DNA from: Crossiella sp. CA-258035
GTDB lineage: Bacteria > Actinomycetota > Actinomycetes > Mycobacteriales > Pseudonocardiaceae
NCBI RefSeq assembly: GCF_030064675.1
Contig: NZ_CP116413.1
Coordinates: forward strand, 5,302,001 to 5,366,000
Direction of reading: 5' to 3'
DNA length: 64,000 nucleotides
The translations under genes and the position numbers were made by a program. Of this stretch, positions 1,547 through 19,864 are shown one piece after another (position 1 is the first letter of the stretch; each line of letters begins with the position of its first letter). The notes beneath the pieces are model-generated. The model ran no database searches and was not told where the DNA came from. It saw only the letters and a program-made list of their open reading frames with translations.

Positions 1547-4500
1547 TCAGCTGGCCGCCGGTAGCGCGGACAGCGCGCGGTTCACCTCCGCCGCCTCCGG
1601 TGAGCCCAGCTCGGTGAGCAGGGCCACGGCCTGGCGGAGGTGGTCCGCGCCGCGCTCGGGGTCGCCGAGGTGGACCAGGCAGCGGCCCATGCCGGTCAGG
1701 GCGGCCGCGATCGCGGCGCGGGCGCCCAGGCGGCGGCCGAGGCCGAGGGCCTGGCGGAACTCGCGCAGGGCCTCGGTGTGCCCTCCGGTGGCCAGGTGCA
1801 GGGTGGCCAGGCGGTGCCGGGCGGTGGCGTGGCCCAGCGGCTCGTCGGCCCCGGCGAAGGAGGTCAGCGCCTGGTCGAGGTGGCGTTGTGCGGCAACGGG
1901 ATCACCGGCCTGGCGGTGGCAGTCGCCGAGGTGGCTCAGCGTGGTGGCCTGGCCGAGCTGGTCGCCGAGCGCGCGGTAGCCGGCCAGCGCCTCGGTCAGC
2001 GCGGCCAGCGCCACCGGGAACTCACCGGCCTCGGTGCCCAGGTGACCGATCGCGGCCAGCACGTGCGCCTGGCCGAGCGGGTTGGCCAGCAGCCGGTAGC
2101 GGTGCCGGGCGTTGCACAGGTGGGCGGCGGCGCCGGGCAGGTCGCCGAGCTGGTGGCGCAGGATGCCCAGGTGCAGCTGCACGTGCGCCTGGCCGAGCGG
2201 GTTGCCCAGCAGGCGGTAGCGGCGCTGGGCGTCGCGCAGGTGGGTGGTCGCGGTGTCGGGCGCGCCGGTGGCCGTGTCCAGCACGCCGAGCTCGGTGAGC
2301 ACGCCGGCCTCGCCGCGCAGGTGGCCGAGCGCGCGGTAGCGGGCCAGCGCGTCGCCGAGGTCCCGGCGCGCGCCGGGGTGGTCGCCGGTCAGGCGCCGCA
2401 ACGTGCCGAGGTTGTGCAGCACGGCGGCGCGGGCGGGTTCGTCGCCGATGTCCTCGGCCAGGGCCAGCGCCGCCTGGTGCAGGCTGATCGACCGGTGCCA
2501 GTGGCCGCGGCTGCGCAGGTACGGGTGCAGGGCGGTGGTGAGCGAGACGGCCAGCGCGGCGTGCGCGCTGGCCGACGGACAGGTGAGGCAGGCCACCAGG
2601 TTGTCGCCTTCCCGGTCCAGCCAGGCCAGCGCGCCGGCGTCGGTGTCCACCGCGGGGTCGTGCGCGAACCGGCAGGCCAGCACGGGCACCGCCATCGGCG
2701 CGTCCGCGAGCACCCTGGTGCTGATCAGCGCGGTGGTGTCCAGGTAGTACTCCAGCAGCCGGCCCGCCGCGGCTGCCCGCGGCGCCGGGTCGTCCTGTTC
2801 GGCCAGGGTGAGCGCGTACTCCTTGACCAGGTCGTGCAACAGGTACCGGCCGGGCTCGGACTCGGTGAGCAGGTGGTCGTCGTAGAGCTGTTCGAGCTCG
2901 TGCCGGGTCTCCGGCACCTCCAGTCCGGCCAGCGCCGCGGTGGCGTGCACCTCGATCTCGTTGCCCGGCAACAGGGCCAGCGACCGGAACAGCCGCTGCT
3001 GCCCCTCGGTGAGGTTGCGGTAGGACAGCTCGAACGCGGCGGTCAGCGTGACGTTCTCCGCGTGCAGCTCCCCCAGCGTCATCCGCGAGGAGGCCAGCAG
3101 GTCCACCAGGTAGCGCAGTGTCCACCGTGGACGGTGCCGCAACCGCCCGGCCAGCAACGTGATCGCCAGCGGCAGCCGCCCGCACAGCGCGGTGAGCTCG
3201 GCCAGCGCCACCGGGTCGGGCTCCTGCTCCGGCCGCCCGGCCAGGCGCAGGAACAGGGCACGGGCCTCCTCGGCCGGCAGCGGGTGCAGCTCCAGGGTGC
3301 GCAGGCCTTCCAGCGCGGTCAGCCTGCGGCGGCTGGTGATCAGCACCAGGCAGCGGCCGGGGCCGGGCAGCAGCGGGCGGAGCTGTTCGTGGCCGGTGGC
3401 GTCGTCGAGCACCAGCAGCATCCGCTTCCCCCGCAGGCTGGCCTGCCACCGCGCGGCGCGGGCCGGTAGCCCGTCGGGGATCTCCGCGCCGGGCACGCCC
3501 ACCGCGCGCAGCAGGTCGGCCAGCGCGTCCTCGGGGGCCACCGGCGGCCGGTCCGCGCTGAAGGCGCCCAGCCGCAGGTAGATCTGGCCGTCCGGGAAGT
3601 GCTCGGCCACCGCGCGGGCGGCGTGCACGGCCAGCGCGGTCTTGCCCACCCCCGGCATCCCGTCGATGGCGATGATCTCGCTGTCCTGCCGGTCCGGGTC
3701 GGCCGCGCCGGAGGCGGCCAGGATGAGCTGCGACAGCTCGGCGTCCCGGCCGGTGAAGGCGCGCACCGCGGCCGGCAGCTGGGCCGGCGCCACCGGGACG
3801 GCGGGTCGCGGGGCGGGCGCGACCTTGATCGCGGCGGGCGCGGGCGGCGGTTCCGGGTCCTCGGCCAGGATCCGCTGGTACAGCTCGCGCAACCCGGTAC
3901 CGGGGTCGATGCCGAGCCGGTCGGCCAGTGTGGTGCGCGCGTCCTGGTAAGCGGAGAGCGCCTCGGCCCGCCTGCCCGAGCGGCACAGCGCGAGCATCAG
4001 CAGCTCGCGCGGCCGTTCGCGCAGCGGGTGAGCGCTTACCAGCGCGGTCAGCTCGGCCACCACCGCCGCGGGCTCACCGCGCGCCAGCAGCAGTTCGGCC
4101 CACAGCTCCTGCGCGGTCAGCCTGCACTCGGCCAGCCGCAGCCGTCTGGTGTGCAGGTACGAGCCCTCCAGGCCGCTGCACGGGTCCCCGCGCCAGCGGC
4201 GCAGGGCCGACTCCACCGAGGTGGTCGCGGCGGCCAGGTTCCCGGCCCGCCGGTGCTCCCTGGCCGCGGCCAGCTCCTGCTCGAAGGCCAGCGCGTCCAC
4301 CTGGGACGCCTCGGCGCGCAGCAGGTAGCCGGCGTCGGTGCGCACCACCAGGTCGTCCCGGTCCGCCGAGGGGTCCGCGCGCAGCGCCCGGCGCAACCGG
4401 CTGATGTTGGTCTGCACGGTGTTGCGCACGCCCTGCGGCGGCGCCTCGCCCCACACCGCGTCGATCAGCGCGCACACCGGCACCGGGCGGTTCAGCTCCA

Positions 4501-4621
4501 GCAGCAGCACCGCCAGCACGGCCTGCTGCCGTGGCCAGCCCAGATCGATCTGGTGCGCGCCGCGCCAGGCCGCCACCGGTCCCAGCACCCCGAAGCTCAA
4601 CTCGTGTTGCTGCGGCCCCAC
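1547..4621 (-). CDS. AfsR-type SARP regulator with NB-ARC and TPR domains
   Basis: Large transcriptional activator of about 1,024 residues. The order is: OmpR-like winged helix (about 8-95, motif NTVQTNISRLRRAL), bacterial transcriptional activator domain BTAD (about 100-250), NB-ARC ATPase (P-loop GMPGVGKTA with Lys327; LLVLDDA as Walker B), then C-terminal TPR repeats of about 40 residues, including two near-identical copies around YRLLxNPLGQAHV. The GTG at 4621 is chosen because SARPs begin just before the winged helix; a longer open frame upstream would run through the lanthipeptide promoter. It is divergent from the precursor gene and is very likely the pathway activator, acting at the 11-bp-spaced repeats at 4749-4798. 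A global AfsR-like role is the alternative. Confidence 0.88.
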   Translation of the reverse strand: MGPQQHELSFGVLGPVAAWRGAHQIDLGWPRQQAVLAVLLLELNRPVPVCALIDAVWGEAPPQGVRNTVQTNISRLRRALRADPSADRDDLVVRTDAGYLLRAEASQVDALAFEQELAAAREHRRAGNLAAATTSVESALRRWRGDPCSGLEGSYLHTRRLRLAECRLTAQELWAELLLARGEPAAVVAELTALVSAHPLRERPRELLMLALCRSGRRAEALSAYQDARTTLADRLGIDPGTGLRELYQRILAEDPEPPPAPAAIKVAPAPRPAVPVAPAQLPAAVRAFTGRDAELSQLILAASGAADPDRQDSEIIAIDGMPGVGKTALAVHAARAVAEHFPDGQIYLRLGAFSADRPPVAPEDALADLLRAVGVPGAEIPDGLPARAARWQASLRGKRMLLVLDDATGHEQLRPLLPGPGRCLVLITSRRRLTALEGLRTLELHPLPAEEARALFLRLAGRPEQEPDPVALAELTALCGRLPLAITLLAGRLRHRPRWTLRYLVDLLASSRMTLGELHAENVTLTAAFELSYRNLTEGQQRLFRSLALLPGNEIEVHATAALAGLEVPETRHELEQLYDDHLLTESEPGRYLLHDLVKEYALTLAEQDDPAPRAAAAGRLLEYYLDTTALISTRVLADAPMAVPVLACRFAHDPAVDTDAGALAWLDREGDNLVACLTCPSASAHAALAVSLTTALHPYLRSRGHWHRSISLHQAALALAEDIGDEPARAAVLHNLGTLRRLTGDHPGARRDLGDALARYRALGHLRGEAGVLTELGVLDTATGAPDTATTHLRDAQRRYRLLGNPLGQAHVQLHLGILRHQLGDLPGAAAHLCNARHRYRLLANPLGQAHVLAAIGHLGTEAGEFPVALAALTEALAGYRALGDQLGQATTLSHLGDCHRQAGDPVAAQRHLDQALTSFAGADEPLGHATARHRLATLHLATGGHTEALREFRQALGLGRRLGARAAIAAALTGMGRCLVHLGDPERGADHLRQAVALLTELGSPEAAEVNRALSALPAAS

Positions 4622-4748
4622 AGCCCACCCCCAAGACGGCACAGCCACTCCCCAGATCGTGACCGCGGTCGCGCCCACCGTAGCCGCAGGCACACGGATC
4701 GTGCAGCCCCTGGCGGAACAAGGGGCTTGAACTGGGCGGCCAGCCGGG

Positions 4749-4813
4749 TGACAGCGCTCTGACAGAGCTGTGTACGCGGCCGTCAGCGCCGTGTACGCGC
4801 CGCGAATTACGTT
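4749..4813 (+). promoter_or_regulatory. SARP-type direct heptad repeats and -10 element of the lanthipeptide operon
   Basis: Heptads TGACAGC (4749), TGACAGA (4760) and TGTACGC (4771) are spaced exactly 11 bp apart. A weaker GTCAGCG follows at 4782 and TGTACGC recurs at 4792. A TAnnnT element (TACGTT, 4808-4813) begins nine bases after the last heptad. SARP regulators are known to bind heptameric direct repeats with 11- or 22-bp periodicity, the last one about 8 bp from the -10, so the layout matches. The predicted transcript would start near 4820 and carry about 70 nt of leader before the precursor ATG. Confidence 0.65.
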
Positions 4814-4891: not shown

Positions 4892-5068
4892 ATGGACGCA
4901 TTCGATCTGGACGTCAGAATCACCACTCCGGCGGGCGCCGACGGCGCGGCCGGGCCGCTGTCCATCATCAGCAGGCTGACCTGCTCGCGCACCCCGGTCT
5001 GCTCCAAGACCACCTGCAAGTGCAGCCAGACCTGCACCCCGATCTGCACCGCGGGCTGCATGCGCTGA
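4892..5068 (+). CDS. lanA: Class I lanthipeptide precursor peptide (LanA)
   Basis: A 58-residue peptide read directly from the DNA. The N-terminal half is acidic and contains FDLDV at residues 4-8, a variant of the FNLD box recognised by LanB and LanC in class I leaders. The C-terminal half carries seven Cys (31, 37, 42, 44, 48, 52, 56) and about a dozen Ser/Thr. Each Cys has a Ser or Thr three or four residues before it: S27-C31, T34-C37, S38-C42, T41-C44, S45-C48, T49-C52, T53-C56. No Cys lies in the leader. The start follows an AAAGGAAAAGG ribosome site. The gene is followed by a hairpin, then lanC, lanB and an exporter. The leader cleavage site is unclear; a cut near Gly21-Pro22 would leave a core of about 36 residues. 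Confidence 0.88.
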   Translation: MDAFDLDVRITTPAGADGAAGPLSIISRLTCSRTPVCSKTTCKCSQTCTPICTAGCMR

Positions 5069-5074
5069 GCAAGA

Positions 5075-5109
5075 GGGTGCTGCCGTGTGTGGAAGACACG
5101 GCAGCACCC
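5075..5109 (+). terminator. Perfect hairpin between lanA and lanC
   Basis: A 14-bp perfect inverted repeat (arms 5075-5088 and 5096-5109, GGGTGCTGCCGTGT and its complement) with a 7-nt loop begins six bases after the lanA stop. There is no T-tract. In lanthipeptide operons such a structure commonly acts as a partial terminator or 3' stabiliser, giving more precursor than enzyme mRNA. It contains the GTG at 5087, which makes that codon an unlikely lanC start. Confidence 0.8.
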
Positions 5110-5152
5110 ACTCGGCAAAATACCGCATTCGTCACAAGAAAAGGGGGCGTTC

Positions 5153-6523
5153 GTGCGCCAGTTGTCCGAACACGCCTCGGCCGGCCCGAGCGCCCCGGCA
5201 CCCGCCTGGCACGGCTCGCTGCCGGGTGCGCTGGCGCGCCGGGCCACCGCGACCGCGCTGGAGATCGCGCGCCGCAGCACCGACCCCGAGTCGGTCATCG
5301 ACCTGGTCATGGCCTCCGCCGAGCAGGCGGTGCACCCCTACGGCTGGTCCTATCCCGGCTTCGCGCACGGGCACGCCGGCCTCGCGCTGCTGCACGTGCT
5401 CGCCGCCGAGGCGGAGCCGGCGGAACCGGGCCGCCGCGCCGCGCTGGACACCGCGTTCAGCTACATCCGCGAGGCGGTCGCCGGAACCGCGGGCACCCCG
5501 CTGACCGAGCCTGGGCTGCTCTCCGGCACCAGCGGGCTGGCGCTGGCCCTGGCCGCCTGCACGCGCGCCGAGGAACGGTTCGGCCCGAGCCTGGACCGGC
5601 TGCACGAGAAGCTGGCCGCGCAGGTCATGGACCTGCCGCTGCCCACGGTGGAGCGCGGGGTCAGCGACTCCGACTACGACATGGTCAGCGGCGCCGCGGG
5701 CACCCTGTCCTACCTGTGCGGCATCGACTCGCCCAGCCCCGCCGTGCGCGCGGCGGCCGACCGGCTCCTCGACTACCTGGTGTGGCTCGGCGAACCGCCG
5801 CGCGACCTGTCGCTGACCCGCCGCTGGCTGATCAGCCCCGAGCTCTGCCGGGGCGAGCGCGACCACCCCTACGGCCACCTCAACGTGGGCCTCGCGCACG
5901 GCATCCCCGGCCCGCTGGCCGCGCTGGCCACCGCCTGGCTGGCGGGCTACCGGCGGCCGGGCCAGGAGGCCGCGCTGCGCGGGGTGCTGGAGTGGGTGCT
6001 GGCGATCCGGCGCGCCGACGGCCAGGGCCCGGTGTGGCCGAGCGAGGTGCCCATCGACGAGACCGGCGCCGAGCTCCGGCCCAGTGCGCCGCTGGACCAG
6101 ATCGCCTGGTGCTACGGCACCGCGGGGGTGGCCGTCGCGCTGCTCCCGGTGGCCGAGGCGCTGGGCGAGGAGTCGCTGCGCGCGCTGGCCGTGGCCTCCT
6201 TCGAGGCCGTGCTGCGCCGCCTGCCCGAGCGCGCGTCCTTCTCTCCCACGTTCTGCCACGGCCTGGCCGGGGTGCTGGTGCTGTGCCTGGAGTTCGCCGC
6301 GCACGGCAGCGAGCTGGCCGCCGCCGAGACGCCCCGGGTGCTGGAGCTGCTGCTGGAGCTGGCCGATCCGGACCTGCCGGTGCTCTTCCGCGACGAGGAG
6401 GAGCCGGGCGTCTTCGTGGACAGCCCCTCCCTGCTCTCCGGTTCGACCGGGATCGCGCTGGCCCTGCTCGCCGCGACCGCGCCGCGCCGTCCGTCCTGGT
6501 TCCGCGCCTTCCTCACGAGGTGA
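5153..6523 (+). CDS. lanC: Lanthipeptide cyclase LanC
   Basis: Zinc-dependent enzyme that adds Cys thiols to dehydroalanine/dehydrobutyrine to form (methyl)lanthionine rings. It has 456 residues, close to NisC. The ligands of the LanC zinc site are visible: Cys320 in WCYG and Cys368-His369 in FCHG; the conserved His249 in LAHGIPG matches the catalytic His of NisC. Further Gly-rich repeats of the alpha/alpha toroid are GFAHGHAGLA, LLSGTSGLA and LLSGSTGIA. The GTG at 5153 is chosen because it has a strong AAAAGGGGG site; the in-frame GTG at 5087 lies inside the hairpin stem. Eight bases separate it from lanB. Confidence 0.93.
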   Translation: MRQLSEHASAGPSAPAPAWHGSLPGALARRATATALEIARRSTDPESVIDLVMASAEQAVHPYGWSYPGFAHGHAGLALLHVLAAEAEPAEPGRRAALDTAFSYIREAVAGTAGTPLTEPGLLSGTSGLALALAACTRAEERFGPSLDRLHEKLAAQVMDLPLPTVERGVSDSDYDMVSGAAGTLSYLCGIDSPSPAVRAAADRLLDYLVWLGEPPRDLSLTRRWLISPELCRGERDHPYGHLNVGLAHGIPGPLAALATAWLAGYRRPGQEAALRGVLEWVLAIRRADGQGPVWPSEVPIDETGAELRPSAPLDQIAWCYGTAGVAVALLPVAEALGEESLRALAVASFEAVLRRLPERASFSPTFCHGLAGVLVLCLEFAAHGSELAAAETPRVLELLLELADPDLPVLFRDEEEPGVFVDSPSLLSGSTGIALALLAATAPRRPSWFRAFLTR

Positions 6524-6530
6524 GTGCCCG

Positions 6531-9500
6531 ATGACCGAGTCCCGTTACCGCGCCAGCGAGTTCTACCTCCTCCGCTCGCCCGCCCTGCCCGCGGAGACCT
6601 TCCGCGAGCTGCTGGCGGGCGAGGGTGACGACGAGCAGCGCCGCGCCGAGGCCCTTTCCCGGCTGCGCGCGCTGGCCCGGACCCCGCTGGTGCGCCGCGC
6701 GCTGGCCGTGGCCAGCACCGACCTGGTGGACGCGCTGGACCGGCTGGACGCCGACGGCGGCGGGAAGAAGAGCAAGCGGGTGCACTCCCGGCTGCTGCGC
6801 TACCTGACCAGGATGTCCACCCGGCCCACCCCCTTCGGCGCCTTCTCCGGGATCGCGCTCGGTGAGTTCGCCGAGCGGACCACGCTGGAGCTCGGGGCGC
6901 CCGCGGTGCACCGGGGCCGGGTGCGCGCCGACATGGGCTGGCTGCTGGCGCTGATCAAAGATCTCGAACAGGACCCGGCGCTGCGCCCGCACCTGCGGCT
7001 GGTCCGCAACGCGGGCGCGCACCTGCGGGGCGACCGGCTGGTGCTGCCCTACGCCGACATCTACGGCAAGGCGGACAACCGCAGCGTGCGGGTGCGCGCC
7101 ACCGCCCCGGTCACCGCGGTGCTGCGGATGGCCGCTACTCCGACCCCGGCCGAACAGCTCGTCGACGAACTCGCCCAGGAGTTCCCCGAGGTGCCACGGG
7201 ACCGGGTCGCCGGTCTGGTGGAGCAGTTGCGGGAGCTCAACTTCCTCATCAGCGACCTGCGTCCGCCGCAGTCCAGCCCGTTCCCCGAGCAGCACGTGGC
7301 CAAGCGGCTCACCGGGATCGAGGCGGCCGCACCAGCCGCCGAGGCGCTGCGCGAGATCATCGAGCTGGTGCACCGGGCCGCCGCCGAGCCGGGCACCGAG
7401 CCGTTGCGCGAGCTGCGAGCCGCCCAGCAGGCGCTGGTGCCCGGCCACCAGAGCGACACCTTCCAGCTGGACTCCGCGCTGGAGCTGCGCGGCGCCGGGC
7501 TCAGCCACGCGGTCGGCGCGGCCGTGGCCGACGCGGTGGACTGCCTGATGCGCCTGGCCGCCGCGCTGCCCGGCCACAACCACCACCTGGTGCAGTACCG
7601 GGAAGCCTTCACCGAGCGCTACGGCGACCACGCGCTGGTCCCGGTGCTGGAGGTGCTCAGCCCGGACACCGGCCTGGACGCGCCGTACAACTACCTCGAA
7701 CCGCCGCGCTCGCACCCGGTGCCGAACAACACCCCGGAACCGTCCACAGCGGACTACGACCTGCTGCTGACCGAGTTCGCCAGCCAGGCCTGGTGCTCCG
7801 GTGCGACCTCGGTGGAGCTCACCGACGCCTGGCTGGACCGGATCGCCCCGCGGGCCGACAAACCCGCGCTGGGCCTCTACCCCGCACTGGACGCCTACGC
7901 CCAGCTCCAGCTCACCGACCCGGAGGGCCGGATCGACGACGGGCAGTGGCGGCTGGTGCTGCGCGAGCTGAGCCTGGCCTACGGCGGGCGCACCACCGGG
8001 CGGTTCTTCGACCTGCTCGGCGAGGACGCGCTGGGCCACCTGCGCGAGCACACCAAGCGGGTGAGCGGCCTGCAACCCGAGGCGGTGCACGCCGAACTGT
8101 GCTTCCTGCCCACCTCGGGGCGGGCGGCGAACGTGGCGTTCCGGCCGCTGCTGCACGAGTACGAGGTGCCGGTCAACGCCACCCCGTCGGCGCGGCCCGA
8201 GCGCACCATCAGCCTGGCCGACCTGCACGTGGGCGTGGCCGGGAACCGGTTCTACCTGTGGTCACGGACCCTGGGCCGCGAGGTCGTGGTCACCCAGGGG
8301 CACATGCTCGGCCCGCACCTGGCGCCCAACGCGGCCCGGTTCGTGCTGGAGGTCTCCCAGGACGGCTACGCCATGCCCACCGGATTCCGTTGGGGCCCCT
8401 TGGAGAACCTGTCGTTCCTGCCCAGGGTCACCAGGGGCGAGGTGGTGCTGCGGCCCGCGCAGTGGACCCTGCGCGCCACGGACCTCACCGGTGATTTCGG
8501 CCCGGCGCTGGCCGCCTGGCGGCAGCGGTGGCGGGTGCCGCGCTACGTCTACCTGGTGGACGAGGACAACCGGCTGCTGCTGGACCTGGAGCACCCGCTC
8601 GGCCTTGACGAACTGGCCGGGCAGATCGGTGGCGAGCACGGCCCGGCGGTGCTGCACGAGATGCTGCCCGCCTTCGACGACCTGTGGCTGTCCGATGTGG
8701 ACGGTGCGAGGTACCTGGAGGAGATCGTGGTGCCGCTGGTGGCACACTCCGCCGAGGACACCGCGCGCAGCCCGGTGCCGCTCTCCGGCAGGCTGGAGTC
8801 CATCGCCGAGGTCGGCGCCAGCCGCAGCCTGCGACGGCGGCACCTGCCCGGCGAGGAATGGGCCTACCTCAAGGTGTACTCGGCTTTCAGCAGGCACGAC
8901 GAGATCATCGCCGGGCCGCTGCGCGCGCACATCGCCGCGCTGCGCGAACAGGGCCTGATCGACCGCTGGTTCTACCTCCGCTACGCCGATCCCCAGCCAC
9001 ACCTGCGCATCCGCTGCCGGGCCGCCGACGCGGGCGCGGCCACCGAGGTGCTGCACCAGCTGATGGCCTGGGGCCGCGGGCTGGTCGAGGCGGACCTGGC
9101 CTTCGACACCGCGGTGGCGACCTACCTGCCGGAGATCGAGCGCTACGGCGGGCCGCGCACCTTCGAGCCGGTGGAGGACCTGTTCACGGTCAACAGCGAC
9201 ACCACCGCCGAGCTGGTCGCGCTGCTGCAACAGGAGGAACCGAAGCTGCGCCCGGAGTTCGTCGCGATCGCCACGGTGGACGCGCTGTACCGGCAGTGGG
9301 GCCTGACCCCGGCGGAGCGCCCGGCGCTGATCCCGCCGGTGGCCGAGTCCGAGGCGGTGCGCAAGGAGTTCCAGGCCAACCGCGACTACCTCGGCGAACT
9401 GCTGCTGCCGTGGGACTTCCGGCCGCACCAGGAAGGCCGCGCGCACCACGAGCTGATCAACGGCCTGCTCGCCCCACAGGCCGGGGCGGTGGCCACCGCC

Positions 9501-9698
9501 GCGCAGGCGGTCCGCGCCGCGATCGCGGCGGAGGCGTTGTGGGGCAACCAGTTCAGCGTGCTCGGCAGCCTGGCGCACATGCAGATCAACCGGTTGATGC
9601 CGGTGGACCTGCCCAGGGAGTCGGCGTGCTACGCGCTGTGGCGGCACGTCCTGCGCGCGGTCGGCGGCCGCCCGGCACACCTGCGAGGGGATTCCTGA
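6531..9698 (+). CDS. lanB: Class I lanthipeptide dehydratase LanB (full length)
   Basis: Dehydratase of 1,055 residues that glutamylates precursor Ser/Thr using glutamyl-tRNA and then eliminates glutamate. Both parts are fused, as in NisB: the N-terminal glutamylation domain (about 1-740, signature RPTPFGAFSG at 98-107) and the C-terminal elimination domain (SpaB_C, from about Trp777, with WFYLRYADPQPHLRIR and YLPEIERYGG). This separates it from the split LanB of thiopeptide clusters. The ATG follows the lanC stop by seven bases. Its presence with a FNLD-type leader makes the system class I rather than thiopeptide. Start and length are normal for the family. Confidence 0.93.
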   Translation: MTESRYRASEFYLLRSPALPAETFRELLAGEGDDEQRRAEALSRLRALARTPLVRRALAVASTDLVDALDRLDADGGGKKSKRVHSRLLRYLTRMSTRPTPFGAFSGIALGEFAERTTLELGAPAVHRGRVRADMGWLLALIKDLEQDPALRPHLRLVRNAGAHLRGDRLVLPYADIYGKADNRSVRVRATAPVTAVLRMAATPTPAEQLVDELAQEFPEVPRDRVAGLVEQLRELNFLISDLRPPQSSPFPEQHVAKRLTGIEAAAPAAEALREIIELVHRAAAEPGTEPLRELRAAQQALVPGHQSDTFQLDSALELRGAGLSHAVGAAVADAVDCLMRLAAALPGHNHHLVQYREAFTERYGDHALVPVLEVLSPDTGLDAPYNYLEPPRSHPVPNNTPEPSTADYDLLLTEFASQAWCSGATSVELTDAWLDRIAPRADKPALGLYPALDAYAQLQLTDPEGRIDDGQWRLVLRELSLAYGGRTTGRFFDLLGEDALGHLREHTKRVSGLQPEAVHAELCFLPTSGRAANVAFRPLLHEYEVPVNATPSARPERTISLADLHVGVAGNRFYLWSRTLGREVVVTQGHMLGPHLAPNAARFVLEVSQDGYAMPTGFRWGPLENLSFLPRVTRGEVVLRPAQWTLRATDLTGDFGPALAAWRQRWRVPRYVYLVDEDNRLLLDLEHPLGLDELAGQIGGEHGPAVLHEMLPAFDDLWLSDVDGARYLEEIVVPLVAHSAEDTARSPVPLSGRLESIAEVGASRSLRRRHLPGEEWAYLKVYSAFSRHDEIIAGPLRAHIAALREQGLIDRWFYLRYADPQPHLRIRCRAADAGAATEVLHQLMAWGRGLVEADLAFDTAVATYLPEIERYGGPRTFEPVEDLFTVNSDTTAELVALLQQEEPKLRPEFVAIATVDALYRQWGLTPAERPALIPPVAESEAVRKEFQANRDYLGELLLPWDFRPHQEGRAHHELINGLLAPQAGAVATAAQAVRAAIAAEALWGNQFSVLGSLAHMQINRLMPVDLPRESACYALWRHVLRAVGGRPAHLRGDS

Positions 9699-9699
9699 G

Positions 9700-11526
9700 A
9701 TGGCGAAGAGGTTGCGGGACAACCACTGGCTGCGCATCGCCGCGATGCTGTGGCGGCTGAGCCCAGTGCGGGTGAGCGCGCTGATCCTGGTCACCGTGGC
9801 GGTGTCGGTGGTGCCCGCGGTGCAGCTCCAGCTCACCGCGAGCGCGGTGCAGTCGGTGGCCGACGCGGTCACCACCGGCAGCACCGAGGGCCTCACCGGC
9901 CAGGTGTTGTTCGTGGGCCTGCTGATCGTGGCGGTCAGCGTGGCCGCGCACCTGTCCGGGGTGTGGCACCAGTACCTGGACGCGGTGCTGCGGCTGCACC
10001 TGGCCACCGCGGTCGGCGAGCAGGTCATGCGCAAGGGCACCCGGATGGACCTGCAGGACTACGAGAACGCCGACTCCTACGACAAGTTGCAGCGGGCCTT
10101 CCAGGAGAGCAGCGGATCCAACATCCACCAGCTGTTCGCCGACACGCTCTCCACCGCCCGCGAGCTGATCACCATCGTGTCGGTCTCCGCGGTGCTGTTC
10201 TCCTGGCACCCGTGGATCGCGCTGCTGATCCTGCTGGCGCCGGTGCCCTCCGCGCTGGCGCAGATGTGGTACGGCAAGAAGATGTACGAGATCGAGTACG
10301 AGCGGGCCGCGGACCGGCGGCGGCTGTTGTACTTCCAGTACCTCACCACCACCGACCACTCCTTCAAGGAAGTCCGGCTGTTCCAGCTCGGCGACTTCTT
10401 CATCGGCCGGTACCGGGAGCTCGTGCACCGCTTCCTCAAGGTCGACCGCTCGATCAACCGCAGGCAGTCGGTCGCCTTCGGGCTGCTCGGCCTGATCAGC
10501 GTGCTGGCCTCCGGCGCGGCGCTGATCTACGCGATGCTCACCACCATGGGCTCCGGCCAGATCGGCCAGCTGGCCGGTTACCTCCAGGCCATCGGCGTGG
10601 TGCAGGCCTCAGGACAGGCGCTGCTGGTCGGGCTGGCGATGCTGTTCCAGAACAAGCTGTTCGTCAGCAACCTGTTCGAGCTGTTCGACCTGCCGGAGCG
10701 GCAGATCGGTGGCGGCAGCAGGCCCTTCCCCGCGCGGCTGAGCCGGGGCATCGAGTTCCGCGAGGTCAGCTTCACCTACCCCGGCACCAGCGAACGCGTG
10801 CTGGACCGGGTCAGCTTCACCATGCCCGCGGGCGAGTGCGTGGCGCTGGTCGGCCAGAACGGTGCGGGCAAGACCACCCTGGTGAAACTGCTGACCCGCC
10901 TCTACGAACCCACCAGCGGGCAGATCCTCGTCGACGGGGTGCCGATCCAGGAGTACGACCTGGACGACCTGCGCCGCAACATGGGCGTCATCTTCCAGGA
11001 CTACATCCGCTACGAGATGAGCGTGCGGCACAACATCGGTTTTGGCGCGGTGGAACACCTCGAGGACACCGACCGGGTGCGCAAGGCCGCCACCGCCAGC
11101 GGCGCGGACACCGTGGTCGAGGGGCTCGGCGGCGGCTACGACGCGATGCTGGGCCGCCACTTCGCCGAGGGCAGCCAGCTCTCCGGCGGGCAGTGGCAGA
11201 AGGTCGCGCTGGCCAGGGCGTTCATGCGGGGCGCGCCGGTGGTGGTGCTGGACGAGCCGACCGCGGCCATCGACGCCGAGGCCGAGGCGGAGATCTTCGG
11301 CCGGTTCCGCACCATCGCGCGCACCTCGACCAGTCTGCTGGTGGCGCACCGCTTCTCCACCGTCCGGATCGCCGACCGGATCATCGTGATCGAGGGCGGC
11401 AGGCTGATCGAGCAGGGCACGCACGCGGAGCTGATGCGCCGGGACGGGCACTACGCCTACCTGTTCAACCTGCAGGCCGCCGGGTACCAGCCGGAGCCGG
11501 ACGCCGAGGCGGTCGGCCCGGCATGA
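9700..11526 (+). CDS. lanT: ABC transporter, fused membrane and ATPase domains (LanT-like exporter)
   Basis: Half-transporter of 608 residues: a six-helix membrane domain (about 20-310) followed by an ATPase domain. The Walker A motif GQNGAGKTT is at 385-393, the signature LSGGQWQ at about 494 and Walker B VVVLDEP ends with Asp518-Glu519. It lacks an N-terminal C39 peptidase domain, so it would export the modified peptide with its leader still attached, or serve immunity. The start lies one base after the lanB stop with a GAGGGG site just upstream, so it belongs to the operon. No separate LanFEG immunity transporter is seen. Confidence 0.88.
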   Translation: MAKRLRDNHWLRIAAMLWRLSPVRVSALILVTVAVSVVPAVQLQLTASAVQSVADAVTTGSTEGLTGQVLFVGLLIVAVSVAAHLSGVWHQYLDAVLRLHLATAVGEQVMRKGTRMDLQDYENADSYDKLQRAFQESSGSNIHQLFADTLSTARELITIVSVSAVLFSWHPWIALLILLAPVPSALAQMWYGKKMYEIEYERAADRRRLLYFQYLTTTDHSFKEVRLFQLGDFFIGRYRELVHRFLKVDRSINRRQSVAFGLLGLISVLASGAALIYAMLTTMGSGQIGQLAGYLQAIGVVQASGQALLVGLAMLFQNKLFVSNLFELFDLPERQIGGGSRPFPARLSRGIEFREVSFTYPGTSERVLDRVSFTMPAGECVALVGQNGAGKTTLVKLLTRLYEPTSGQILVDGVPIQEYDLDDLRRNMGVIFQDYIRYEMSVRHNIGFGAVEHLEDTDRVRKAATASGADTVVEGLGGGYDAMLGRHFAEGSQLSGGQWQKVALARAFMRGAPVVVLDEPTAAIDAEAEAEIFGRFRTIARTSTSLLVAHRFSTVRIADRIIVIEGGRLIEQGTHAELMRRDGHYAYLFNLQAAGYQPEPDAEAVGPA

Positions 11527-12482
11527 GGGTCTCGCTGATGGTGCCGGTCATGCCGCACGAGCCCGAGCACCTGCCTGCCTACGCCGAGCTGGTCGGGGAC
11601 AGCGGGGCGCACCGGCTGTGGCAGGGCCAGTCGCTGGCGCTGGAGACCTTCCAGGGCTTCGCCTACCTGGCCGGGCGCGGACTGCGGGTGCCGGTGGGCA
11701 CCAGCGTCACCCTCACCGCGCTGCGCCACCCCTACGAGGCGGCCCTGCAGGCCAGGTCGCTGGCCCGGCTCACCGGGCACGACCTGGTGCTGGGCCTGGG
11801 CACCGGCACGCCGGAGCTGGTGGCCTCGCTGCGCGGGCGGCCCTACCGCAGTCCGCTCACCGCGGCCCGCGACCAGCTCACCATCCTGCGCGGCCTGCTG
11901 GACGGCGAACCCGTGGCGCACGAGGGCCGCTACGACACCATGCTGGGCGCGCTGCCGGAGTTCGCGCATCCCGCTGTCTCCCTTGGGCTTGGCGTGCTGC
12001 GGCCCGGCATGGCCAGGGTGGCCGGTGAGCTGGCCGAGGTCGCGATCACCTGGCTCACCCCGCCGTCCTACCTGCGCGAGGTGCTGCTGCCGGAACTGCG
12101 CGCCGCGGCCGGGGCGGCGGGCAGGCCGGCGCCGAGGGTGGTGACGGTGGTGCAGGTCGCGGTGGCCCGGCCCGGTCGCGATCCGCACCTGGTCGCGCTG
12201 AACGGCTCGCGCGAGCACCTGGCCGCGCCGCACTACACCGACATGCTGCGGCGGGCCGGGGTGCGCGTGCACCCGGCGCAGGTCGCGCTGAGCGCCCGCG
12301 CGCTGGTGCGCTCGGGCGTCTTCCTGACCGGCACGGTCGCCGAGATCGCCGAGGGCCTGGCGGAGTACCGGGCGGCCGGGGTGGACGAGGTGGTGCTCAA
12401 CACCGCGGGGGTGCACCTGACCGAAGGCCGCGCCGCCGCGCTGGACGACCTCGGCGAGCTGCTGGCCGCCCGGCCCGGCTGA
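11523..12482 (+). CDS. Luciferase-like (F420-type) oxidoreductase, candidate LanJC reductase
   Basis: Flavin/F420-dependent luciferase-like monooxygenase family protein of 319 residues with a TIM-barrel fold; visible features are GTSVTLTALRHPYEAALQARSLA, GHDLVLGLGTG and the C-terminal GVDEVVLNTAG. Its ATG overlaps the exporter stop (ATGA), so it is translated with the lan genes and is the last gene of the operon. Known LanJC enzymes are F420H2-dependent members of this superfamily that reduce Dha/Dhb to D-Ala/D-aminobutyrate. That role is an inference from position and family; oxidation of a residue elsewhere in the peptide is the main alternative. Cofactor choice cannot be proved from the sequence. 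Confidence 0.75.
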   Translation: MRVSLMVPVMPHEPEHLPAYAELVGDSGAHRLWQGQSLALETFQGFAYLAGRGLRVPVGTSVTLTALRHPYEAALQARSLARLTGHDLVLGLGTGTPELVASLRGRPYRSPLTAARDQLTILRGLLDGEPVAHEGRYDTMLGALPEFAHPAVSLGLGVLRPGMARVAGELAEVAITWLTPPSYLREVLLPELRAAAGAAGRPAPRVVTVVQVAVARPGRDPHLVALNGSREHLAAPHYTDMLRRAGVRVHPAQVALSARALVRSGVFLTGTVAEIAEGLAEYRAAGVDEVVLNTAGVHLTEGRAAALDDLGELLAARPG

Positions 12483-12491
12483 GCCGTCCGG

Positions 12492-12950
12492 TTACAGGTC
12501 CTTCGAGCTCAGCGGCTGGTTCGCCGCGTAGCCGGCCAGGCCGTCGGCCATCCGCCGCATGGTCTGGCTCATCACGCGCTGCATCATCCGCCGCATGCCC
12601 CACCTCGCGGTGTAGGTGCCGTGCCAGTTGATGATGGTGCCGCCGTCGGGGGCCGGGGTGAGGTCGATGACCGCGCGGTAGTCGCGCAGGGCCCAGTTGA
12701 AGGCGTCCTCGTAGGTCAGCTGTTTCTGCTCGGTCAGCCCGGTGATGCGTTCGCCGGTCACCGTCCGCCCGGTGCGGAAGGCGCGGACCGCGCCGACCGG
12801 GTCCCTGCCGTTGCGGTCCAGGCCGCTGGAGCGCTCCGGCACCAGACTGTCCACAGTGGACCAAGCGGGCCAGGTGCGGGCGTCCAGCAGCAGTCGCCAG
12901 ACCACGGCCGGGGGCGCGGGGGTGGTGGCGGTCGCGTGGTATTTCTGCAC
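12492..12950 (-). CDS. SRPBCC (polyketide cyclase/START-like) protein
   Basis: A 152-residue protein of the SRPBCC superfamily, a helix-grip fold with a deep hydrophobic pocket. The N-terminus HATATTPAPPAVVWRLLLDA-TWPAW and the middle strand INWHGTYTARWG are typical of the Polyketide_cyc2 group. The ligand is unknown. It converges with the end of the lan operon, separated by nine bases, and lies downstream of an AraC regulator on the same strand. It is probably not part of the lanthipeptide pathway, because it is on the opposite strand. Confidence 0.75.
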   Translation of the reverse strand: MQKYHATATTPAPPAVVWRLLLDARTWPAWSTVDSLVPERSSGLDRNGRDPVGAVRAFRTGRTVTGERITGLTEQKQLTYEDAFNWALRDYRAVIDLTPAPDGGTIINWHGTYTARWGMRRMMQRVMSQTMRRMADGLAGYAANQPLSSKDL

Positions 12951-16312: not shown

Positions 16313-17218
16313 ATGATCGGACCTGGGGAGAGGCCGGCCTCGGGTGAGTGGACGCCGAAAGCGGTGGCCCAGCGACTGGGCGTCTCCGCGATCACCCTGC
16401 GCACCTGGGAACGCCGCTACGGCCTCGGCCCCGGCGATCGCCAGCCGGGCAAGCACCGCCGCTACACCGAGGAGGACGTGCGCAGGCTCCGCCGCATGGT
16501 CGAGCTGACCGGTCAGGGCATGGCCGCGGCCGCGGCGGCGGCCACCGCGCTCGCCGAGTCGGACCCGGCGGCCGGACCGGTGTTCCCCACGACGCCCGAG
16601 CTGACCACCGAGTCGGCCGTGCGCGGACTGCACGCGGCCGCGCTGCGCATGGACGCGCCCGCGCTGCGCCACCTCACCCGCACCGCGATCGCCGAGTTCG
16701 GCGTGATCGGGGCTTGGGAGCGGGTGTGCACGCCGGTGCTGGTCGAGCTCGGCCAGCGGGTGGCCGAGTCCGGCAGCGGTGTGGAGATCGAGCACGTGAT
16801 CAGCGACAGCATCGAGCACGTGCTGCGCGAGCTCACCCACCTCCCCGAACAGGGCAACCTGTGCGCCCTGCTCTCCGCCGCCCCCGACGAACACCACACC
16901 CTGCCCCTGGACGCCCTCGCCGCCGCACTGGCCGGCCTGCGCCGCAGCTCCCGCATGCTCGGCGCCAGGGTGCCCCCGGCCGCGCTGCTGGGCGCGGTGC
17001 GGCGGTTACGGCCGCTGGTGACCGTGGTGTGGTCGCACCAGCCGGCGACCGCGCTGGCCACCCCGGTGCGGGAGCTGACCGAGGACCGGCGCACGGTGCT
17101 GGTGCTCGCGGGTCCGGGCTGGGCGGAGGTCGAGGTGCCGGAGCACGCGCGACGGGTGCAGGACCTGCGCGGGGCGGTGCGGTTCATCGACGAGGCGGCG
17201 AGCAGGCGCTGGGGCTGA
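16313..17218 (+). CDS. litR: MerR-family regulator with cobalamin-type sensor domain (LitR/CarH-like)
   Basis: A 301-residue protein. The N-terminal MerR winged helix (about 12-80, ITLRTWERRYGLGPGDRQPG) is followed by a four-helix region and a Rossmann-like domain, as in LitR/CarH photoreceptors that use adenosylcobalamin. The Glu160-His161 pair of the W-x9-EH motif is kept, but the Trp position is Val150. The cobalamin lower-ligand motif is PDEHHTLP with His195, whereas family members normally end this motif in Gly. It is upstream of crtE and crtI, as LitR is in Streptomyces. It probably represses the local promoters in the dark; true B12 binding needs testing because of the changed residues. 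Confidence 0.8.
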   Translation: MIGPGERPASGEWTPKAVAQRLGVSAITLRTWERRYGLGPGDRQPGKHRRYTEEDVRRLRRMVELTGQGMAAAAAAATALAESDPAAGPVFPTTPELTTESAVRGLHAAALRMDAPALRHLTRTAIAEFGVIGAWERVCTPVLVELGQRVAESGSGVEIEHVISDSIEHVLRELTHLPEQGNLCALLSAAPDEHHTLPLDALAAALAGLRRSSRMLGARVPPAALLGAVRRLRPLVTVVWSHQPATALATPVRELTEDRRTVLVLAGPGWAEVEVPEHARRVQDLRGAVRFIDEAASRRWG

Positions 17219-17315
17219 GGCGGCCTGCTTTCGCACTACAGAGCGGTTTGGCGTGCGACTGCCCGCACCCGCTGTTTAGCTCGGCCATGATCGCCCCAAC
17301 CGCGAGGAGGCCCCG

Positions 17316-18386
17316 ATGTCCGTGGTGACCGACACCCCGCTGGTCTTCCGCGGCCTGCTGGCGGAGGAGCTGGCCGACTTCTTCGCCCGGGCGCCGCACC
17401 GGGAGCTGGTGCCGGAGCTCGCCGACGAACTGTCCGCCCTGATCCTCAGCGGCGGCAAGCGCCTGCGCCCCGCCTTCGCCTGGTGCGGCTGGCTGGCCGC
17501 GGGCGGTCCGGCGACGGGACCGGCCGCGCGCGCCACCCTGCGCGCCCTGGTCGCACTGGAGCTGCTCCAGGGTTGTGCGCTGGTGCACGACGACGTGATG
17601 GACCGCTCCGCCACTCGCCGGGGCAGGCCGAGCGCGCACGAGGCGTTCGCGCGGCGGCACGAGCGCGGGGCCTGGGCGGGGCAGGCCCGGCGCTATGGCG
17701 AGTCCTCGGCGATCCTGGTCGGGGACCTCGCGCTGGCCTGGGCGGATGACGCGCTGGTCACCGCGGGGCTGCCGTCGGCGGCGCTGGGCAGGGCGTGGGA
17801 GCCGTGGCGGGCCATGCGCACCGAGATGATCGCCGGTCAGCACCTGGAACTGCTGGGCGGGGCGCGGCGGGCGGAGTCCACCGCCGAGGCGGTGCGGGTG
17901 GCCGAGCTCAAGACCGCCGCCTACACCGTGGAGCGGCCGTTGCAGCTGGGCGCGGCGATCGCCGACGGCGCACCGGAACTGGTGGCCGCGCTGCGCGCCT
18001 ACGGCCGGGACGTCGGGGTGGCCTTCCAGCTGCGCGACGACCTGCTCGGCGTCTTCGGCGACTGCGCGCGCACCGGCAAGCCCGCCGAGGACGACCTGCG
18101 GGAGGGCAGGCGCACGGTGCTGATGACCACCGCCCTGGAACTGGCCCGCGCGAACGGAAACCGGGTCGCCGAGCGCATCCTGCGCGCCTGCCTCGACGGC
18201 GGTGCGACCGACCTGGAACGGGTGCGGACGCTGCTGATCGACCTCGGCGCGGTGGCCGCCGTCGAGCAGCGGATCGACCAGCTGACCGACCGGGGCCTGC
18301 GCGCGCTCGACCGCCTGCCCCTCGCACCCGAACCCCGCGAACAGTTGCGCCTGCTGGCTTCGCGGGCCACCCGGCGCGGGCGGTAG
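17316..18386 (+). CDS. crtE: Geranylgeranyl diphosphate synthase (polyprenyl synthetase)
   Basis: All-trans prenyl diphosphate synthase of 356 residues that condenses isopentenyl diphosphate with allylic diphosphates. Both aspartate-rich magnesium sites are present: DDVMD at 92-96 and LRDDLLGVFGD with Asp241-Asp242. The substrate-binding GGKRLRP is also seen. The ATG follows GAGGAGG. The following crtI starts two bases after its stop, so C20 product for carotenoids is likely. Chain length is not fixed by the motif alone. Confidence 0.9.
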   Translation: MSVVTDTPLVFRGLLAEELADFFARAPHRELVPELADELSALILSGGKRLRPAFAWCGWLAAGGPATGPAARATLRALVALELLQGCALVHDDVMDRSATRRGRPSAHEAFARRHERGAWAGQARRYGESSAILVGDLALAWADDALVTAGLPSAALGRAWEPWRAMRTEMIAGQHLELLGGARRAESTAEAVRVAELKTAAYTVERPLQLGAAIADGAPELVAALRAYGRDVGVAFQLRDDLLGVFGDCARTGKPAEDDLREGRRTVLMTTALELARANGNRVAERILRACLDGGATDLERVRTLLIDLGAVAAVEQRIDQLTDRGLRALDRLPLAPEPREQLRLLASRATRRGR

Positions 18387-18388
18387 GT

Positions 18389-19864
18389 GTGGCGCGCGCC
18401 GTCAGCGGCCGCACCGAGGAGGTCGTGGTGGTCGGGGCCGGGCTGGCCGGACTGGCCACCGCGCTGCACCTGCGCGGCGCGGGCCACGAGGTCACCGTCC
18501 TGGAACGACTCCCCCATCCCGGCGGACTGGCCGGGCGGCTGGACGTGGACGGCCACCGGATCGACCCCGGCCCCACCGTGCTGACCATGCCCGAGCTGCT
18601 CGAGGAAGCGCTGGCCGCGGTCGGCGAAAGTCTGGCCGACCACCTGCAACTGCTCCCCCTGCACCCGGCCTACCGGGCCCGCTTCCACGACGGCAGCACC
18701 CTGGACGTGCACACCGGGGCCGCGGCCATGGAGCAGGCCGTGCGCGAGTTCGCCGGGCCCCGCGAGGCTGAGGGTTACCTGCGGATGCGGTTGTGGCTCA
18801 AGCGGTTGTACGAGGTCGAGCGGGACCGGTTCATCGGCTCCTCCTTCGACTCCCCGCTGGACCTGCCGATCCGGGACCTGCTCGCGCTGGCCCGACTCGG
18901 CGGTTTCCGCTCGCTCTCCGGCGCGGTGGGCCGGTTCCTGCGCGATCCCAGGCTCCAGCGGGTCTTCACCTTCCAGGCCCTCTACGCCGGCGTCTCCCCC
19001 GCCGACGCGCTGGCCGCCTACGCGGTGATCTCCTACATGGACACCGTCGCCGGGGTGTGGTTCCCCAAGGGCGGCATGCGCGCGGTGCCCCAGGCCATGG
19101 CCGACGCGGCGCACGGTGCGGGCGTGCGTTTCCGTTACGGCGCGGAGGTTGTCCGGCTGGAGCGCACCGGCAACCGGGTGCGCGCGGTGCACACCCAGGA
19201 GGAGCGTTTCCCCTGCGACGCAGTGGTCCTGGCCACCGGACCCGGCCCGGCCCGCGAGCTGCTGGTGCGGCCACCGCGCAGACCGCTGCGGCCGAGGTGG
19301 TCGCCCTCGGCGGTGGTGGTGCACCTGTCCGCCGAGCACGTCGCCGAAGACCAGGCGCACCACACCATCTCCTTCGGCCGCGCGTGGAAACGCACCTTCC
19401 GCGAGATCGTGCGGCAGGGCAGGCTGATGAGCGACCCGTCCCTGTTGCTGACCACGCCCACGGTCACCGACCCCGGCCTGGCGCCGCCGGGCAGGCACCT
19501 CCAGTACCTGCTCGCCCCCTGTCCACACCTGGGAAACTCGACCGTGGACTGGTCCCGCACCGGCCCCGCCTACGCCGAGGAGCTGGTGGATGTCCTGGCA
19601 CAGCGCGGAATCCTGCCCGACCGGACCGCGGTGACCCGGCTGTCGCTGACCACCCCGCTGGACTGGGCGGCCGGCGGACAGGCGGCGGGCACACCGTTCT
19701 CCTTGGCGCACAACGTGTCCCAGACCGGGCCGTTCCGGCCGGGCAACCTGCCGTTCCGGGACGGCAACATCGTGCTCGCGGGCAGCGGCACCACCCCGGG
19801 AGTGGGCATCCCGCCGGTGCTGATCTCCGGCCGCCTGGCCGCCGAGCGCGTGCACGGCGGCTAG
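18389..19864 (+). CDS. crtI: Phytoene desaturase (CrtI-type FAD oxidoreductase)
   Basis: FAD-dependent carotenoid desaturase of 491 residues. The dinucleotide-binding motif VVVVGAGLAGLATALHL lies at the N-terminus, PGPTVLTMP follows near 55, and the C-terminal carotenoid-desaturase signature FRDGNIVLAGSGTTPGVGIPPVLISG is intact (quoted in two parts: FRDGNIVLAGSG and TTPGVGIPPVL). The GTG start sits two bases after crtE. No phytoene synthase is present in the window, so its substrate must be made by an enzyme encoded elsewhere, or the protein acts as a diapo-type or other CrtI-like desaturase. Confidence 0.87.
   Translation: MARAVSGRTEEVVVVGAGLAGLATALHLRGAGHEVTVLERLPHPGGLAGRLDVDGHRIDPGPTVLTMPELLEEALAAVGESLADHLQLLPLHPAYRARFHDGSTLDVHTGAAAMEQAVREFAGPREAEGYLRMRLWLKRLYEVERDRFIGSSFDSPLDLPIRDLLALARLGGFRSLSGAVGRFLRDPRLQRVFTFQALYAGVSPADALAAYAVISYMDTVAGVWFPKGGMRAVPQAMADAAHGAGVRFRYGAEVVRLERTGNRVRAVHTQEERFPCDAVVLATGPGPARELLVRPPRRPLRPRWSPSAVVVHLSAEHVAEDQAHHTISFGRAWKRTFREIVRQGRLMSDPSLLLTTPTVTDPGLAPPGRHLQYLLAPCPHLGNSTVDWSRTGPAYAEELVDVLAQRGILPDRTAVTRLSLTTPLDWAAGGQAAGTPFSLAHNVSQTGPFRPGNLPFRDGNIVLAGSGTTPGVGIPPVLISGRLAAERVHGG

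Follow-up and report, generated by a model that had tools for sequence, protein, structure and literature searches.

Reductases of the luciferase-like monooxygenase (LLM) type encoded beside a Ser/Thr dehydratase are known from several families of ribosomally synthesised and post-translationally modified peptides (RiPPs). According to the accessible parts of the published accounts, LxmJ (lexapeptide), Cao12 (cacaoidin), RosJ (rosin), the LLM protein of birimositide, for which the name LanJC was used by Walker et al. 2020, and TfDapJ (daptide) all stand in such a setting, in pathways of class V, of class II or of the daptides, with LxmJ and Cao12 assigned to class V (PMC8068269), RosJ also to class V and TfDapJ to a daptide cluster. 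The rodencin paper (2024), in its available text, places the D-amino acids made by LanJ enzymes primarily in classes II and V. In the decRiPPter paper, as far as its text was accessible, homologues of sprOR were present in 124 of 462 canonical lanthipeptide clusters (30% identity cut-off, class unstated), and therefore a bulk link of this enzyme type with lanthipeptide clusters is already in print. No report of D-alanine made by a LanJC enzyme in a class I lanthipeptide was found in the literature searched, within the text that its sources made available. Here we describe a locus of Crossiella sp. CA-258035 in which, unlike in those pathways, a LanJC-like protein (J) is fixed within an operon for the class I enzymes LanB and LanC, the peptide product of which would carry D-alanine. 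The locus lies at 4892-12482 of the window, by which we mean the whole 64,000-nucleotide stretch analysed (positions 5,302,001 to 5,366,000 of contig NZ_CP116413.1).

Among class I systems, the FDLD family of NCBIfam (NF038155) has the same FDLD leader, the same core start and class I LanB and LanC enzymes, but its model covers the precursor only, and not J or the hairpin described below, and no characterised product of the family was found in the accessible text of the literature searched. Microbisporicin, planosporicin and embleporicin have LanA, LanB and LanC in common with the Crossiella operon in their available descriptions, whereas the main text of the embleporicin paper contains neither 'luciferase' nor 'LanJ', and the Crossiella core reads SRLTCSRTPVC in place of the lipid II motif SxxxCTP(G/S)C. 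On account of this motif, a lipid II binder of the nisin/gallidermin kind was considered and rejected (PMC7268733, available text). Canonical LanB and LanC are likewise found in class I families I 1-4 and in the olv/coi type, which, in the text at hand, differ in carrying an O-methyltransferase and, for families I 1-4, a conserved core Asp; none of the seven proteins scanned at the locus matched PF01135 (O-methyltransferase), and no Asp occurs in the predicted LanA core. A Crossiella genome paper speaks broadly, in its accessible text, of lanthipeptide clusters of classes I, III and V.

Five genes, lanA, lanC, lanB, the exporter gene lanT and lanJ, run in one direction, tightly packed and with all frames open, the ATG of lanJ overlapping the stop codon of lanT. 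The first-pass annotation, made from the letters of the window, had rightly recognised LanA, LanC and LanB, and had left the exporter and the reductase within 4892-12482 unmentioned; it had passed over the conserved hairpin as well, and over the fact that the genome contains the operon twice. The features are, in window coordinates:

1547-4642, minus strand: divergent AfsR/SARP-like regulator, start codon uncertain (Trans_reg_C, BTAD, NB-ARC and TPR domains)
4760-4778, plus strand: conserved promoter-region element TGACAGMGCYGTGTACGCG, with a second, partial copy at 4784-4799 (10 aligned upstream regions)
4892-5068, plus strand: lanA, 58-residue precursor, core predicted from Ser24 (NF038155 above cut-off; relatives at 9 other Crossiella loci)
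4961-4963, plus strand: Ser24 codon, predicted site of dehydroalanine (Dha) formation and reduction to D-alanine (sole invariant Ser in 20 J-linked precursors)
5075-5109, plus strand: hairpin with a 14-bp perfect stem between lanA and lanC (from the sequence)
5153-6523, plus strand: lanC cyclase, GTG start preferred, open reading frame from 5087 (LANC_like E 4.1e-44; NisC/MadC alignment; zinc ligands)
6531-9698, plus strand: lanB, full-length dehydratase of 1055 residues (Pfam domains; alignment with solved relatives)
9700-11526, plus strand: lanT, ABC exporter of 608 residues (ABC_membrane, ABC_tran)
11523-12482, plus strand: lanJ, LanJC-like F420-type luciferase-like reductase of 319 residues (Bac_luciferase; F420 LLM families; predicted model)

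The 58-residue peptide with an FDLD box and seven Cys that had been reported directly before LanC and LanB is indeed encoded at 4892-5068, from an ATG preceded by GAAAGGAAAAGG. It has a leader of the F(N/D)LD type and a Ser/Thr/Cys-rich core, predicted to contain 12 Ser/Thr versus 7 Cys, and scores 27.9 bits against NF038155 ('FDLD family class I lanthipeptide'; curated cut-off 20). The linear core S24-R58 has a calculated mass of 3738.73 Da, which would become 3522.60 Da after dehydration at all 12 Ser/Thr and 3524.62 Da if one residue were also reduced (+2.016 Da for each reduction). The second copy in the same genome and all five relatives tested also exceeded this cut-off; a class-wide search with the model matched the own genome only among 394, despite the five direct matches, and was not used for counts. 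Because of this score, and because the same neighbours recur at all ten Crossiella precursor loci, the lanA match is not due to chance. Three further Crossiella genomes encode close relatives (86-93%). The seventh Cys, Cys56, is Cys in 16 of 20 J-linked precursors and is replaced by Arg or Ser in the three direct orthologues. The view that the precursor escapes gene finders and annotation models has to be given up, since it passes a curated NCBI model, and 'sometimes missed' is still a fair description (about 24% of class I precursors lacked annotation according to the accessible text of Walker et al. 2020). No characterised lanthipeptide with the LanA core was found in the literature searches, as far as their sources were accessible, or among plasmids (BAGEL, MIBiG and antiSMASH lay outside the search).

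Both the glutamylation and the elimination domain of LanB are present (Pfam Lant_dehydr_N, E 1.9e-160; Lant_dehydr_C, E 3.2e-51), and its alignments with the solved 9g04 (residues 5-1044 of 1055), with 5ehk (40-903) and with NisB (44-913) bear out the earlier statement that it is full-length. In LanC, the Cys and Cys-His zinc ligands characteristic of class I cyclases are present. In the longest open reading frame, which opens at GTG 5087, they are Cys342, Cys390 and His391, and they become Cys320, Cys368 and His369, as previously numbered, when translation begins at GTG 5153. The latter start is preferred because GTG 5087 sits within the hairpin and AAGGGGG precedes GTG 5153. The alignment of LanC with MadC and NisC, the zinc ligands of which are given in the available text of PMC9889658, spans the zinc site and the catalytic region, and among 22 related loci the Trp-Cys, Cys-His-Gly and (Ala/Ser)-His-Gly motifs were retained in 22 and Asp-Tyr-Asp in 19. 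The interpretation as a complete class I operon survives, while that of a precursor beyond the reach of gene finders does not: the locus is a compact class I lanthipeptide operon, its central part of a known kind, and very probably makes a ring-rich modified peptide.

By family, sequence relatives and predicted fold, J is an F420-type luciferase-like, LanJC-like protein. It matched 20 LLM families overall, the best NCBIfam profile, with a score below its cut-off, being TIGR03564, the MSMEG_4879 domain reported for LxmJ and Cao12 (PMC8068269, accessible text). All six solved relatives at E<=1e-10 are F420-dependent Mer proteins (methylene-tetrahydromethanopterin, H4MPT, reductases), and the predicted model, with a mean predicted local distance difference test (pLDDT) value of 95.5, has Mer chains as its five best fold matches, followed by other F420 enzymes. 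CofD, for F420 synthesis, is coded in the genome of the window and scores above cut-off.

Ten precursor loci were found in five Crossiella genomes, the window included (E up to 6.5e-15), matches with E of 0.08 or worse being discarded as chance. Each of the ten shows the same gene order of regulator, A, C, B, T and J, although one regulator is truncated where its stretch ends. Four of the five genomes contain two or three operon copies. The second copy in the window's own genome, at 3,950,511 (locus L031, 6512-13999, genome G000; L and G numbers are our labels for loci and genomes), codes for proteins 58-79% identical to those of the first, and C, B, T and J of the three direct orthologous loci L032, L033 and L034 are 78-99% identical. 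When a profile of the ten precursors was run against the family (390 genomes), 7 genomes matched, namely the five Crossiella genomes and G085 and G087, both with weak, leader-only matches. The cassette also occurs in Streptomyces, there without the divergent AfsR-like regulator.

To follow J across genomes, contigs were scanned for its relatives with one of two short J motifs required, which retained 80 of 108 relatives. LanB/LanC genes accompany J at 18 of these loci (5 Crossiella, 13 Streptomyces), class V genes at 32, and LanKC-type genes with a daptide aminotransferase at 13, so that J stands beside Ser/Thr dehydratase genes at 63 of the 80 loci, as it does in the window. The labels come from tblastn with representatives of the same loci, LanM lying outside the test set; nothing but a weak kinase match places L084 in class V, and at L108 the stretch ends within the LanKC gene (E 9e-07). 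One representative per locus type was checked, by HopA1 and, above cut-off, by LxmK NF038156, LanKC NF038151 and daptide aminotransferase NF041821. J thus keeps company with three unrelated Ser/Thr dehydration routes. A role of J as a daptide core enzyme was considered and set aside; the accessible text of the daptide papers treats the LLM protein as an accessory enzyme making D-alanine. A tree of 84 J proteins (quick method, no bootstrap) groups all 22 class I rows with 2 unassigned ones in a single clade (SH-aLRT 96).

As a linkage control independent of J, 392 Streptomyces genomes were searched with LanB only, giving 11 matches at E up to 1e-130. J was present at all seven loci with 50-56% LanB identity (G1140, G1118, G1070, G1044, G781, G785 and G788), being known at G781, G785 and G788 from the J-scan loci and at the other four from fetched stretches, and at none of the four distant LanB loci with 37-43% identity (G1143, G848, G1050 and G921; 18 kb read each). 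The LanB gene of G1044 carries one in-frame stop, and a scan for FxLD-type precursors in eight fetched stretches found none at G1044, G1143 and G921.

Some further features of J loci were seen in passing. By rough gene calls, 11 of the 13 class I loci of Streptomyces have an erythromycin-esterase family gene (PF05139; for example 11078-12352 of L125) close to J; it was not seen after J in Crossiella. The Streptomyces loci L056 and L090 combine a J of the class I clade with a partial exporter, LanB and LanC not being found, and are possible operon relics. At L062, L064, L068 and L074, the neighbours of J are M16 peptidases and a protein that matches neither NCBIfam nor Pfam; these loci may represent another dehydratase-bearing RiPP type.

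The hairpin between lanA and lanC consists of its perfect 14-bp stem and a 7-base loop. The Crossiella hairpin and promoter patterns were built from the ten loci, so that only absence elsewhere counts as a result: the hairpin pattern matched ten sites across the five Crossiella genomes, each cluster having exactly one and the remaining sequence none (reversed control 0). A near-identical stem lies immediately 3' of lanA at 10 of 11 Streptomyces J-scan loci with a visible precursor, the exception being L125, and at two of three precursor loci read later, the third being L150 (12/14 in total for Streptomyces). Among the 14 genomes behind the Streptomyces loci, nine contain the pattern once, at the cluster and nowhere else, and the five without a site include those of L058 and L059 (no visible precursor), L125 and two possible relics. 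In the 392 Streptomyces genomes, 10 had a hairpin site: the five of the CCGTG/CACGG kind were all at a lanA, and the five with other inner-stem letters had no such precursor within about 1.5 kb. This search pointed to two previously unseen clusters. Changes within the stem are paired, T-A being replaced by G-C in L053 and by C-G in L057. Rfam returned four matches to the hairpin region, all far under the gathering score.

The residue on which J would act was sought in an alignment of 20 precursors from J loci (8 Crossiella, 12 Streptomyces), four identical ones (L035, L039, L067 and L151) being excluded. Position 24 is Ser in all 20, positions 27, 32 and 45 are Ser/Thr mixed, and positions 41 and 53 are always Thr. 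Ser24 directly follows Pro22-Leu23, and a Pro at position -2 is frequent in class I leaders, for which reason Ser24 may be the first core residue. At that place, a Dha left unreduced would be unstable. Dehydration of Ser24 to Dha and reduction to D-alanine are predicted because it is the only position that is always Ser and because LxmJ was reported to be unable to reduce dehydrobutyrine (Dhb) in an S28T variant (PMC8068269, accessible text). Regarding the leader, no C39 peptidase domain was among the Pfam matches of LanT and no protease was among the seven proteins scanned at the locus, a situation described likewise for the SapT cluster in the text at hand; therefore, an unlinked protease probably removes it. 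The SapT work also depended on the GluRS/tRNA-Glu pair of Thermobispora.

The gene content, the open frames, their conservation and the family and fold of J are established; the pathway, with its chemical steps, cofactor, cleavage site, D-alanine site and the role of the hairpin, is inferred. LanB would dehydrate Ser/Thr residues of the LanA core and LanC would close as many as seven (methyl)lanthionine rings by adding Cys. F420H2-dependent J would hydrogenate at least one Dha to D-alanine, most likely the one formed at Ser24, where the core is predicted to begin. LanT would then export the peptide, and a protease coded elsewhere would cut the leader, probably after Pro22-Leu23, while the hairpin after lanA would raise precursor mRNA above enzyme mRNA. 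We give this explanation as a whole, a class I operon with J-made D-alanine most likely at Ser24, export, leader removal and a hairpin-set mRNA ratio, a probability of roughly two in three.

Several observations weigh against it. J falls short of the TIGR03564 cut-off (126 versus 234 bits); its relatives from the class V locus L066 (113 bits) and the LanKC/daptide locus L079 (130 bits) also miss it, and the cut-off therefore does not separate LanJC proteins. FMN enzymes appear among the fold matches of J from rank 11. The counterpart of MadC Arg294, proposed to be essential in the available text of PMC9889658, is Gln338 in the LanC of the window; Gln also occupies this position at all seven other Crossiella loci read, and of the 11 Streptomyces J loci, seven have Arg there, three Gln and one Val. 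This position is not class-defining and is variable in the family, and the class I assignment was kept. No dehydratase could be named at 17 of the 80 J loci, 9 of which are stretches of <14 kb, and no LanB was found at L056 and L090 although their J proteins fall inside the class I clade. The 20 aligned precursors are related, so that an invariant Ser24 is weak evidence, and Ser24 might be ring-bound or remain Dha. The hairpin is without a T-run, and is missing at L125 and L150.

The diversity of LLM enzymes, with FMN monooxygenases among the folds and 20 families matched by J, together with its score below the TIGR03564 cut-off, would also fit a J acting otherwise, on another peptide group or a small molecule, and an ordinary class I lanthipeptide free of D-amino acids. 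We regard this as improbable, as the accessible literature links the LLM relatives of daptide, class II and class V clusters to D-alanine from Ser, J is fixed in one LanB clade and its nearest solved relatives use F420. That J reduces several dehydro residues beyond Ser24, perhaps also Dhb to D-aminobutyrate (D-Abu), seems unlikely, yet merits attention: 12 Ser/Thr for 7 Cys leave up to 5 dehydro residues, and deletion of rosJ, according to the text at hand, indicated two reductions, whereas LxmJ did not reduce Dhb in the accessible account and three other hydroxyl positions alternate between Ser and Thr. The loss of the last Cys in the three direct orthologues could be taken as a sign that the operon is silent or decayed in the window's strain, which appears very improbable given that all frames are open and that L032, L033 and L034 keep C, B, T and J. 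As for the hairpin, its likeliest role would be that of a partial terminator or processing site favouring precursor mRNA. That it is instead bound as DNA, or acts as a signal for mRNA processing and not as a partial terminator, is a minority option that deserves to be kept in mind, since the stem sequence itself, beyond its fold, is conserved between genera, there is no T-run and no Rfam family reaches its gathering score; the paired changes in the stem count against it, as does the common occurrence, in lantibiotic operons, of a stem-loop directly behind the gene for the precursor.

The element TGACAGMGCYGTGTACGCG upstream of lanA has ten matches in the five Crossiella genomes, all of them at these loci (reversed control 0). 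At 4760-4799 the window has two copies of GTGTACGCG, 21 bases apart, the second imperfect, and the longer form is confined to these clusters. Such an arrangement would fit the direct-repeat sites of SARP-type regulators. The best NCBIfam matches of the divergent regulator are AfsR and HaaT, both below cut-off, and each of the 9 other Crossiella loci has it beside lanA, one copy being truncated where the stretch ends. Downstream, an SRPBCC gene (12492-12950) was dropped as a cluster member, since, among the 9 other Crossiella loci, tblastn found it at L032 alone, which belongs to the same species. Farther along, 16313-19864 encodes consecutively a MerR-type regulator, a polyprenyl synthetase and a FAD amine-oxidase-like protein, presumably a carotenoid-like cluster.

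Tentatively, and at somewhat less than an even chance, we suggest that a class I clade spanning Crossiella and Streptomyces recruited LanJC once, for the conversion of an N-terminal Dha to D-alanine, and that its clade-specific conserved hairpin sets the ratio of precursor to enzymes. The hairpin is usable as a DNA search probe for the FDLD/J cluster family, and a LanB-linked LanJC would serve as a tool for inserting D-alanine into peptides. As a test case, the locus offers a small and well-delimited operon in which the residue concerned can be named. If the proposal is true, D-alanine at the start of the core would also prevent this residue from being hydrolysed to a pyruvyl group after leader removal.

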